Assembly: GCF_027257155.1 (NCBI RefSeq)
Contig: NZ_JAPWDU010000005.1
Span: 124,001 to 188,000 of the forward strand
Reading direction: 5' to 3'
DNA: 64,000 nucleotides
Source of the DNA: Cerasicoccus sp. TK19100
GTDB lineage: Bacteria > Verrucomicrobiota > Verrucomicrobiia > Opitutales > Cerasicoccaceae
Below, in pieces: positions 16,146 through 36,454 of this stretch. Each line of letters starts with the position of its first letter. The first letter of the stretch is position 1. The notes beneath the pieces are model-generated. The model was not told the DNA's origin, ran no database searches, and worked only from the letters and a program-made list of their open reading frames with translations. Position numbers and translations under genes: made by a program.

Positions 16146-16375
16146 CGTTCTCCAAAACAACAACGGGGGTGTTGGTCCAACAATAGCGAATGTGTTGGGG
16201 CCACACATGGGGATGTGTTGGGTCCACACATCCAGTTGTGTTGAGGCAACACTACGGCATGTGTTTCCCTAAACGATGGTAATGCTTTTGGGAAAACGAT
16301 GGGTATGTGATGCGCAAAACGAACCCCATGCTTTTCTTAAAACGATGAGTATGCTTTGGGGGGCGGGGGATGCTT
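16146..16375. repeat. Degenerate tandem array with 23-bp period (about 9-10 units)
   Basis: Successive units begin at 16169, 16192, 16215, 16238, 16261, 16284, 16307, 16330 and 16353, exactly 23 bp apart. Most begin GTGTT or GCTTT and end in AT. Units 1-4 contain near-palindromes such as TGTTGGTCCAACA and TGTTGGGTCCACACA; units 5-8 share AAACGATG...TAT words. The sequence drifts gradually along the array. The period is not a multiple of three and no ORF follows it, so it is not coding. Apart from this array and the operators, the stretch 16054-16431 between the symporter and the exported-protein gene holds no gene that I can see. Confidence 0.8.
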
Positions 16376-32094: not shown

Positions 32095-33132
32095 TTACTT
32101 CTCCTTGTCGAAGGCGGCGTCGAAGGCGACGTCGCTGGTGGGGAAGTCGACGCTGCGGACGAACTCTGCGGCTTCGGCGGCGCCGTGGAAGCGGTCCATG
32201 CGGATGTCTTCCCATTCTACCGAAAGCGGGCCGACGTAGCCGATGTCGTTCAGGGCGACGATAATGTCCTCAAACATGATGTCGCCATGGCCGAGCGAGC
32301 GGAAGTCCCAGTAGCGGCGTGGGTCGCCGAAATCGGTGTGGCCGCCGAATACGCCGACGTCGCCATTGCCGTGGTCCCACCAGACGTCCTTCATGTGGCA
32401 GTGGTAGATGCGGTCCTTGAAGGTGCGGATAAACTTCACGTAGTCCACGCCCTGGTAGCCCAGGTGGGACGGGTCGTAGTTGAAGCCAAAGCGCTTGTGG
32501 CCCTTGAGCGCCTTGATCGCGCGCTCGGCGCTGGCGATGTCGAAGGCGATTTCCGTCGGGTGAACTTCCAGAGCGAAGTTGACGTTTACCTTGTCGAAGG
32601 CGTCGAGGATGGGCTTCCAGCGAGTGGCGAAATCCTTAAAGCCGTCTTCGATCATCTTCGGCGTGATGGGTGGGAAGGAGTAGAGCAGGTGCCAGATGCT
32701 GGAGCCGGTGAAGCCGTTGACGACGGCGGGCAGCTTGCTCTTGTCGACGCCCTTGGGCTTGGCGTCCATGAACTTGCGGCAGGCCTTGGCGGTGGCGATC
32801 ATTTCCTTGGCCGCGCGCTTGCGGACGCCTTCGGGCTTGCCGTCGCCCCAGACGTAGTCGGGGATGATGCTCTTGTGGCGCTCGTCAATCAGGTCGCACA
32901 CGGCCTGGCCGACGAGGTGGTTGGAAATGGCGTAGCAGGACAGGCCGTGATCGGCGAGCAGCTCCCATTTTTCCTTTAAATACGTTTTCTTGCCGGCCTG
33001 GGAGACGTCGAAATGGTCGCCCCAGCAGGCGAGCTCGACGCCATCGTAGCCCATGTCTTTGATCTTGGGCGCAAGCGTTTCCAGGGATAAATCGGCCCAC
33101 TGGCCGGTGAAGAGAGTGACGGGTCGGGACAT
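32095..33132 (-). CDS. Sugar phosphate isomerase/epimerase (AP-endonuclease-2-like TIM barrel)
   Basis: 345 residues of the xylose-isomerase-like TIM-barrel superfamily. Metal ligands are suggested by E in [10 protein letters not shown] in [12 protein letters not shown] in IYHCHMKDV and E in SVEWEDIR. The N-terminal [18 protein letters not shown] is typical of the subgroup found in sugar-acid or myo-inositol-type catabolism. ATG 33132 fits the conserved start; an upstream TTG-type extension is unsupported. Monocistronic here. A 23-bp-period repeat array lies 155 bp upstream of its start. Confidence 0.85.
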
Positions 33133-33287: not shown

Positions 33288-33448
33288 GCGGCCCGGAGTT
33301 TCCCTATGGGCAAACTGTCAGTTTGCCCATAGGTTTCGCGACAGTTTGCCTAGGTGTTTCGTGCCAGTTTGCCCCTAGGCTTCGTGCCTCGAAACCTAGG
33401 TGTTTCGCGACACAATACCTCTAGGTTTCGTGTCACGAAAGGTATGGG
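33288..33448. repeat. Degenerate tandem array with 23-bp period and a perfect 15-bp hairpin
   Basis: Units start at 33311, 33334, 33357, 33380, 33403 and 33426, exactly 23 bp apart, and share TTTCG(C/T)G at the start, CAGTTTGCC in the centre of several, and CTAGG or TAGG(TG) at the end. At 33303-33333 the two arms CCTATGGGCAAACTG and CAGTTTGCCCATAGG pair perfectly around one base. The period matches the array at 16146, though the sequence differs. The rest of 33133-33702 (about 570 bp) holds no gene I can support; a short inverted repeat GTGTTAT/ATAACAC lies at 33614-33630. Confidence 0.8.
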
Positions 33449-33702
33449 GGAACTGGCGGGGGAGGCTATGTGGCAATAACATGAAAGATGAAATAGCAAG
33501 CACTGCTAAAATTAATCTATCCCCGATATGCTGGAACCATGGCGAACTAACCCTTTGTGGCCATTTTGTGCATACGGAATGCAGCGATTTTTTTCTCAGT
33601 TCGTAAGTTTTAGGTGTTATCAAATAACACTGTGAGGCGAAAAAAACAAACTAATGTCACGTTTAACTTGACGTGTTGTTTTTAACATTTCAAGTCTAGA
33701 GC

Positions 33703-34215
33703 ATGATCACAGAAAAACGCATCACATCAGTCATCAATACCGCGATGGAGAAAATCTCTATCGCTGCCTCCAATCGGGACACATCGGAAATCACAAAATT
33801 CACAAGAATAGCAGAAGACGCGGAGAAACTAAAAAGTAAGCTCAGCAACATGCTACTGAGCCTTGAAGTTCTGGAATCAGAAGTGTCTTCGAAAAAGAAA
33901 ATCACACACGAGACCCCTAGTGAAAATCTTCGAAACTTCCGAATTAGAGTCTCGCAAGGAATGATTAATCAGAATTTACTCACATTCACTCAACAGGTGA
34001 AATTTGGAGAAATAAAAGTAGGAGAAGTCTTACGCGTTAAGACATCAGAAGGAGGCCTGTTTAAATCAGAGATCTTGTCCCAAGGAAATAAATTAAGGGA
34101 AAGAGGACAAGTAGGGGAATTCTACAAGAAAGCTGGAATCAAAGCAGACGACTTCGTAGAATTGATAGAACAAAAGCCATCAGAATGGTATTTGAGACCA
34201 CACGTAAAAAACTAA
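33703..34215 (+). CDS. Hypothetical protein, candidate integron cassette gene
   Basis: 170 residues, not recognised. The first half is helical and charged (AAS repeats, ESEVSSKKKI); the second half has VKFGEIKVGEVLRVKT and YKKAGIKADDFVELIEQ, giving a small beta-rich domain that resembles a DNA-binding or restriction-associated fold, but this is only an impression. Codon use and base composition are clearly more AT-rich than the chromosome around it. The stop codon is followed after 2 bases by an attC-like site (34218-34272), the layout of an integron gene cassette. Confidence 0.6.
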   Translation: MITEKRITSVINTAMEKISIAASNRDTSEITKFTRIAEDAEKLKSKLSNMLLSLEVLESEVSSKKKITHETPSENLRNFRIRVSQGMINQNLLTFTQQVKFGEIKVGEVLRVKTSEGGLFKSEILSQGNKLRERGQVGEFYKKAGIKADDFVELIEQKPSEWYLRPHVKN

Positions 34216-35491: not shown

Positions 35492-36454
35492 TCACCTCGT
35501 CCTGACGCGCCAGACGGGGTAGCGGCCGAAGGACTTGATGTGCACGGAGATGTCGTCCTTGGGGACGGAGGGGTCGATACCGGGGACGGATTTATCGATG
35601 ATGATTTCCGAGCCGCTGCACACGCTGCAAAGGCGGCTGGCGACATTGATCGGGCGGCCAATGTAGTCCTCTGCGCCCGGAATTTGGCTCGCCAGGCCGA
35701 AGGAGAGGCCGGCGGCGACTTCTTCCGGGGCACCGTGGCTAAACTGCGGTGCGCGGCGAACGATGTCCCACTGGTCCTGTAGCTCGCGCAGGCCGTTAAT
35801 GCAGACCTCCAGCGCGGCGGGGCGGTCCTCGTAAGTCGTTTCCCAGAGGGTGAGCACGCCGTCACCCAGGTATTTAATGAGGTCTGGGCGGTATTTGTTA
35901 AAGCGCTGCTCGACGCTTTGGTAAAAGGCATACATGAGGCCGCAGGTGTAGGGGCTCTCAATGTGGGGCTGCTCGCAAAAGACGGAGAAGCCGCGCAGGT
36001 CGATGATCGCGGTCAGCACCTCGCAGGGGATGCCGAATTCGATGCGGGGCTCGTTGTCGCTGTCGAGCTGGTATTTCTCCAGCAGCACGCCTTCGAATTC
36101 GAAGGTATTGAGGCGGGAAATGTCGGGCGTCTGGACGGTTAGTCCCATCGGCGTCGCCTTGGTGTGCCCTTCCTCGGTAACGTAGTCGAGCGAGGCGCAG
36201 GGGCCGCTGTCGATACTGCCATTATACAAGGTGGCGTGAAAGCGGCAAACGGACGTGGCTTTGTCGTGCAGGATTCGGAGAATCAGCGAGATGTCGTGCT
36301 CGTCCTCGACGATGGGGCCTTCCTCGGAGTAGATGCTGTAGCGCACCTTGGGGAACTGCGGCTGCACGCGCAGCAGGTAGCCACAGATATCCCAGAAATC
36401 CGTAAAGTCCAGGTAGGGGATCGCGTAGTGCCGGTTTAAACTCTTGTTAGGCAT
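35492..36454 (-). CDS. Class III adenylate cyclase
   Basis: 320 residues. The catalytic domain covers about 145-320: metal-binding aspartates D152 (IDLRGF) and D198 (YLGDGVL), adenine-specifying K194 and D263 (EDYIG), transition-state N270 and R274 (PINVASRL). All six key residues fit the adenylate-cyclase pattern, so it should make cAMP from ATP as a homodimer. The N-terminal 140 residues contain no recognised sensor domain; they may be a new one. No membrane helix, so it is cytoplasmic. Monocistronic here. Confidence 0.92.
   Translation of the reverse strand: MPNKSLNRHYAIPYLDFTDFWDICGYLLRVQPQFPKVRYSIYSEEGPIVEDEHDISLILRILHDKATSVCRFHATLYNGSIDSGPCASLDYVTEEGHTKATPMGLTVQTPDISRLNTFEFEGVLLEKYQLDSDNEPRIEFGIPCEVLTAIIDLRGFSVFCEQPHIESPYTCGLMYAFYQSVEQRFNKYRPDLIKYLGDGVLTLWETTYEDRPAALEVCINGLRELQDQWDIVRRAPQFSHGAPEEVAAGLSFGLASQIPGAEDYIGRPINVASRLCSVCSGSEIIIDKSVPGIDPSVPKDDISVHIKSFGRYPVWRVRTR

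Follow-up and report, generated by a model that had tools for sequence, protein, structure and literature searches.

Bacterial intergenic repeats such as REPs are recognised by a conserved sequence or a hairpin, and MITEs, to which the arrays described here bear a likeness, are short non-coding dispersed copies with inverted-repeat ends. Iterons of plasmid origins are, like the arrays, tandem sites about two helical turns apart, and tyrosine-recombinase core sites combine inverted 7-bp arms with an asymmetric 8-bp centre, as the array units do. We analysed arrays of this kind in Cerasicoccus sp. TK19100, starting from one array in a window, which denotes the whole 64,000-nucleotide stretch of DNA under analysis. 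BIMEs are regularly spaced REPs in alternating orientation with preserved palindromes (PMC2817692). Like BIMEs and the REPs associated with RAYTs (PMC2817692 and PMC3116915), the arrays are intergenic, dispersed and genome-specific, consist of spaced alternating words and presumably move non-autonomously. Unlike in REPs and BIMEs, the units are non-palindromic, with cores that shun symmetry, the pitch is fixed at 23 bp and the words are replaced family by family; unlike the REPs that delimit RAYT genes, no array was seen bracketing a transposase gene around the 16 matches to Y1 transposases. The layout of alternating, regularly spaced words thus agrees with that of BIMEs, but palindromes preserved by complementary changes were not found in the arrays, which we therefore call BIME-like rather than BIMEs.

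The arrays resemble REPINs (PMC3116915) in being short non-coding dispersed copies with inverted-repeat-like ends in some cases. As for MITEs and REPINs, dispersed homologous copies are absent at counterpart sites; unlike in either, the array body is made of tandem units and no target duplication was recognised by eye at family A ends, the empty site of A2 being too diverged to be decisive. Searches for Y1 transposases and for arrays found no autonomous relative or parent transposon. Unlike iterons, the arrays are inverted word pairs found at about 50 places on eleven contigs, and unlike tyrosine-recombinase core sites they are tandem and their arms are mixed. CRISPR was rejected, as the units differ and the words occur in both orientations, which does not correspond to near-identical direct repeats with unique spacers. 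No earlier description of such arrays was found in the literature searched.

Anatomy of the 23-bp arrays

The exact 23-bp spacing reported in the preliminary description holds over seven units of the window array and lies above all shuffles, and the unit positions given there share the phase of the seven units at 33296-33456. Over 115 bp, lag-23 identity is 0.61 at this array and 0.63 at 16.17 kb, compared with a maximum of 0.45 among 20 second-order Markov shuffles of the complete window and 0.39 at the next-highest real place in the window. The array is genuine and far above chance. Within it, TRF reported periods of 23 (score 80) and 46 (score 114). The perfect 15-bp hairpin noted earlier is also present, with arms flanking T33318; its interpretation as one unit duplicated in inverted form is not supported, since only 1 of 62 junctions in family A, namely this hairpin, is identical over 11 bp, against 1.3 expected, and the hairpin is thus at chance level.

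Each 23-bp unit consists of two 11-bp words, inverted to each other, and one free base. The 77 complete units from 13 family A arrays follow the order 7-bp head, 4-bp tail, 4-bp tail, 7-bp head and free base, with words of the same set, reverse-complemented, making up the second half. Heads are mostly CAGTTTG, CACGAAA/CGCGAAA and CACAATA, tails are CCTA, CCCA, CACC, GGTA and CCCC, and the free base carries 0.05 bits of information. The geometry of family A recurs with other words in families B (83 units in 10 arrays), C (112 in 12) and D (54 in 7), family D having AA/TT symmetry around the free base, and further word sets occur in single arrays, E in L219 and F in L151 and L096. A word-blind phase finder, run without the two family A arrays carrying an indel, found one phase in 33/33 usable arrays of families A, B and C. 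The spacing is kept through most of the 273 units in these families, and indels, judged by eye rather than counted systematically, are few: two in family A arrays and a few shifted end units in family C. In family C, a few units at array ends are out of phase, as is most of the short array L070, and the first units of the family D array L211 are out of phase or ragged. The earlier proposal that something measures 23 bp across word families is supported by the four families analysed and the single arrays of E and F. The two window arrays had also been called unrelated, which is right for their words but not for their geometry, as both follow 11 bp + 11 bp inverted + 1.

Array bodies comprise about 3-13 tandem units, and the element measures roughly 70-300 bp. 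Among the 13 family A arrays, 8 start with a GAG word and 4 finish with AAACTC, and some copies have inverted-repeat-like ends (GAGTTTG...CAAACTC). In family B, an end resembling GTGTGACAAAAAGGC recurs in L013, L014 (a variant), L073, L075 and L076. The word CAGTTTGCCCC is common to family A and family C (L048), and the two may therefore be related vocabularies.

Table 1. Positions of arrays, array parts, neighbouring genes and judged sites (window coordinates unless a contig or site is named; G001, Cerasicoccus frondis; G003, C. maritimus; own, TK19100)
Feature	Position	Strand	Remarks
Family A array	33296..33456	.	seven 23-bp units, 7/7 in one phase
Family A array, unit starts	33296, 33319, 33342, 33365, 33388, 33411, 33434		in window
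15-bp inverted repeat	33303..33333	.	matching words of units 1 + 2; arms 33303-33317 and 33319-33333; centre = free base T33318
Outer left word of window array	33296..33306	+	GAG-type (GAGTTTCCCTA)
Family B array	16154..16360	.	nine 23-bp units; geometry as family A, other words
Left neighbour, xylose-isomerase-like TIM barrel (AP_endonuc_2)	32095..33132	-	context only
Right neighbour ORF	33703..34215	+	170 aa, GC3 0.42; not called by codon-usage script; context only
22-bp arrays	own L096:1247, L151:2310, L153:8696, L102:16038; G004 L114:10078, L117:7862; G001 L194:688
Gene pair kept without 23-bp array	A2 (G003); A10 (G001, G003); A11 (G001); B9 (G001, G002); D1 (G001, G003)
Array sites at synteny breaks	A3, A4, A5, A7, A9, B1w, B3

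The 8-bp core of the unit avoids palindromy in families A, B and C, the opposite of REPs and BIMEs. Perfectly palindromic cores occur in 3/77 units of family A (11.2 expected), 0/83 of family B (11.7 expected) and 7/112 of family C (24.6 expected), the expectation being obtained by permuting right halves among units with related copies treated as independent; the deficit stands after removal of identical units. Family D has 1/54 against 4.0 expected (P 0.07), and word set E, counter to this rule, contains symmetric cores. G.U wobble as a cause of the asymmetric cores was rejected, as the family B cores, inspected by eye, do not fit it. Across the free base, the match of heads (of 7 positions) is at chance in family A (3.47 vs 3.57 expected), slightly above it in family B (4.22 vs 3.78, P 0.003) and slightly below it in family C (3.63 vs 3.90, P(<=) 0.009).

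Distribution in the genome and the genus

A genome-wide listing of 23-bp arrays with a comparison of unit families, as envisaged in the preliminary description, gave 51 places matched by families A, B and D in the TK19100 genome (G000, 5.07 Mb): 14 for A (one just 23 bp long), 10 for B and 27 for D. This count excludes contig-end matches to a shared non-array repeat, two family D places, one overlap among weak B/D matches and a D match of 38 bp. In this genome, the reading of individual units covered 13 A, 10 B and 5 D places; the remaining D places are blastn matches. The congeners compared were C. frondis NBRC 105381 (G001), C. maritimus NBRC 105382 (G003) and a fourth congener (G002). Family C, searched like family B in 10 genomes, occupies 8 places in C. 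frondis and 4 in C. maritimus. Family D, searched in 6 genomes, occupies 17 and 10 places, respectively, some of them matches of 30-60 bp, and none in G002, G004 or G006. No match to A, B, C or D was found in G002. A family A blastn search of 54 relatives, with at most 7 candidates scored per genome, matched three genomes: TK19100 itself, C. frondis (a family C array) and G017 (no tandem repeat). The family A unit pattern matched 0 loci in a genome contig database that possibly does not include TK19100, and the family C pattern matched 7 (six in C. frondis and one in C. maritimus). De novo lag-23 scans of random stretches found 2 arrays in 400 kb of TK19100, 1 in 240 kb of C. frondis and 0 in 154 kb of C. 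maritimus. In G002 (268 kb), neither lag 22 nor lag 23 gave an array; G004 (200 kb) had two at lag 22 but none at lag 23, and 400 kb of G004, G005, G040 and G043 together contained one T-rich lag-23 match without unit structure. The lag detector scores 24/27 TK19100 arrays at 0.55 and 25/27 at 0.45, some of these arrays having been found by it. The element type has so far been found only in part of the genus Cerasicoccus. A phage or plasmid origin was rejected: one A and one B pattern had no match in IMG/VR, and the window array had none in phage or plasmid records.

The closest pairs of copies, aligned without gaps, reach a similarity of 89% in A, 82% in B and 92% in C; between the window array and the array at C1:493172, taken in inverted orientation, it is 77% across the full seven units. 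When copies are compared by half-slot, their differences are overdispersed (variance 3.80 vs 1.96 in A, 4.02 vs 1.85 in C and 2.78 vs 2.13 in B), from which we infer that words were exchanged between slots; position-specific constraint could also produce this pattern.

Gene context and counterpart sites

The window array lies upstream of a xylose-isomerase-like TIM-barrel gene and the 16.1-kb array upstream of a Na+/solute symporter gene. A position upstream of carbohydrate genes, as claimed earlier, is not supported as a rule: by a home-made codon-usage gene caller, 26 arrays (copies such as A3, A4 and A5 not being independent, and one array at a contig end left aside) comprise 11 in convergent, 11 in co-directional and only 4 in divergent gaps, the window array among the last. 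Upstream regulation as a general role was rejected on this gene-pair context. Convergent gaps are more frequent among arrays (11/26) than in a background of gaps of at least 200 bp in random TK19100 stretches (9/85; Fisher p 0.0007), the background for any gap size being 32/269.

The block to the left of the window array is conserved in G001, G002 and G003 up to about 33140. To its right, no counterpart was found in the three congeners, and the ORFs at 33703-34215 and 35492-36454 had no match in Pfam, NCBIfam or PHROGs; of the acquired DNA previously placed near the arrays, this right side is plausible.

The flanks of ten arrays were searched in the three congeners and, with A3, A4, A5 and B1w added, twelve sites were judged (A8 and A12 lie outside these). 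Five of the twelve keep the gene pair without a 23-bp array in at least one congener and seven are synteny breaks (Table 1). The D1 counterpart gap in G001 and G003 measures about 1 kb, where another gene may be present, the A11 counterpart may involve paralogues, and the breaks at A7 and B3 were called in G001 alone, A7 on a partial 160-bp match. None of 20 counterpart stretches fetched in the congeners reaches a lag-23 identity of 0.45 over 69 bp, and A2 is an empty site in C. maritimus. The convergent gene pair of B9 encloses a family B 23-bp array in TK19100 (L103:2230-2425), a 22-bp array of other words in C. frondis (L194:688) and no array in G002. Presence and absence are compared here between species, one genome each, and absence in relatives could also reflect loss.

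Some of the breaks are linked. The left flank of A3 and the right flank of A4 are 51 bp apart in C. frondis, the left flank of A5 adjoins the right flank of A3 in C. frondis and C. maritimus (by eye), and A3, A4 and A5 are close copies at these linked breaks. The association of arrays with rearrangement breaks is suggestive only, because the region is broken elsewhere too without arrays. Between 14600 and 34500 of the window, gene order is heavily rearranged relative to the three congeners, with several breaks that carry no array.

Candidate enzymes and rival explanations

Y1_Tnp matches number 8 in TK19100, 3 in C. frondis, 2 in C. maritimus, 0 in G002 and 3 in G004, which had no family D match. 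Around the 16 matches (130 kb), four lag-23 arrays lie within 4 kb, at distances of 0.5-3.2 kb, and A2, just under the lag-23 threshold, lies 1.75 kb from another Y1 match. For three of the eight TK19100 Y1 genes, an array is found no more than 4 kb away, where 0.63 genes would be expected (P 0.02, for a distance chosen post hoc). One TK19100 Y1 protein scores above the REP_Tyr_transpos cut-off and one C. frondis protein below it, and two TK19100 Y1 proteins resemble IS200 below the cut-off. A Y1 (IS200/RAYT-like) transposase is thus the leading, albeit weakly supported, candidate enzyme.

On balance, we favour the view that the arrays are non-autonomous mobile intergenic elements of BIME-like layout, with a spacing set by a putative oligomeric DNA-binding protein. 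Both the protein-set spacing and the enzymatic mobility are inferences. A dimeric or oligomeric DNA-binding protein, probably a mobilising enzyme acting in trans, would contact a word about every 11.5 bp, with the orientation alternating from word to word, and would thereby fix the 23-bp spacing. The words would drift or swap slots by recombination, so that each lineage would come to have its own vocabulary, and the copies would then promote rearrangements, as any dispersed repeat does. More tentatively, the arrays may represent an undescribed class of bacterial mobile or chromosomal element defined by geometry instead of sequence: a protein lattice would read the 11-bp word of each half-unit, the orientation alternating and the pitch being fixed at 23 bp, with unit words that preferably differ at the centre, a replaceable vocabulary and several families per genome under one rule. 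In these arrays, spacing and the symmetry rule are conserved, while the vocabulary varies by family and by species. Should a single protein read all families, this would be a mode of DNA binding that ranks spacing above sequence; should several related proteins read them, the families would form a natural record of the co-evolution of repeats and enzymes.

The conserved 23-bp spacing could also be a sign of host function. The arrays would then be operators, pseudo-palindromic and in tandem, to which a dimeric nucleoid protein or repressor binds and which the host selects as chromosome-organisation or regulatory sites; this would account for the pitch retained through most of the A, B and C units with few indels and for the AA/TT symmetry in family D. 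We regard this as rather unlikely given that the vocabulary varies between families of one genome and between species, that G002 has no match for families A to D, that counterpart stretches carry no 23-bp arrays and that few arrays stand in divergent gene pairs. Less likely still are true REP/BIME elements, palindromic units recognised as hairpins and moved by RAYTs. Alternating orientation, regular spacing, intergenic position and species-specific sequence agree with such elements, as do the Y1 transposases in the three array-bearing genomes (8, 3 and 2) and their lack in G002, the protein above the REP_Tyr_transpos cut-off and the slight excess of matching neighbouring heads in family B. Against them, the agreement of neighbouring words is at chance level in A and a little under it in C, symmetric cores are avoided, word order gives no gain in folding, and the arrays closest to Y1 genes are 0.5-3.2 kb away, none having been seen to bracket one.

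Site-specific recombination at core-type sites of a tyrosine recombinase, with inverted 7-bp arms and an asymmetric 8-bp overlap, would shuffle words and segments. The 7-8-7 geometry, the avoidance of symmetric cores in A, B and C (family D pointing the same way, P 0.07) and the arrays at linked breaks fit this explanation, which is nonetheless improbable: a unit often has a different word in each arm, and PF00589 matches are most numerous in the array-free G002 (19, versus 11 in TK19100, 15 in C. frondis and 9 in C. maritimus). A structured RNA or bidirectional terminator selected for folding appears highly improbable. Array strands do fold better than mononucleotide shuffles (mean z -5.5 in A, -3.6 in B and -7.8 in C; 30 arrays), and convergent gaps are preferred. 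Compared with word-order shuffles of the same 30 arrays, however, folding is about equal (family means -0.2 to -0.7, single arrays -2.6 to +2.6), and a tRNA is the sole Rfam match that the window gives at gathering scores. The strands fold well because words and their complements coexist; selection for a hairpin or structured RNA was rejected, as neither pairing permutations nor word-order shuffles support it.

Several further observations concern other repeated sequences. At L146:1398 and 1962, inverted GCCCTAGG...CCTAGGGC words flank a Y1 match, as expected for REP/RAYT pairs, and words like these are present in intergenic DNA elsewhere. Another class of arrays has a 22-bp period and uses GTCGCCGAC-type, TTGGGCGGTTCCCAA-type or CAGTTCCTCGG-type words, and its members on L096 and L151 directly adjoin a 23-bp array. 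Finally, a common stretch like GTGTATTGTCAGCGAAGTT is found at several contig ends: the end of L023 (end of C7), the start of L043 (C11), and the start of L044 and end of L041 (C6). At C7 this stretch abuts a family A array, and an insertion sequence may therefore target or cut arrays.
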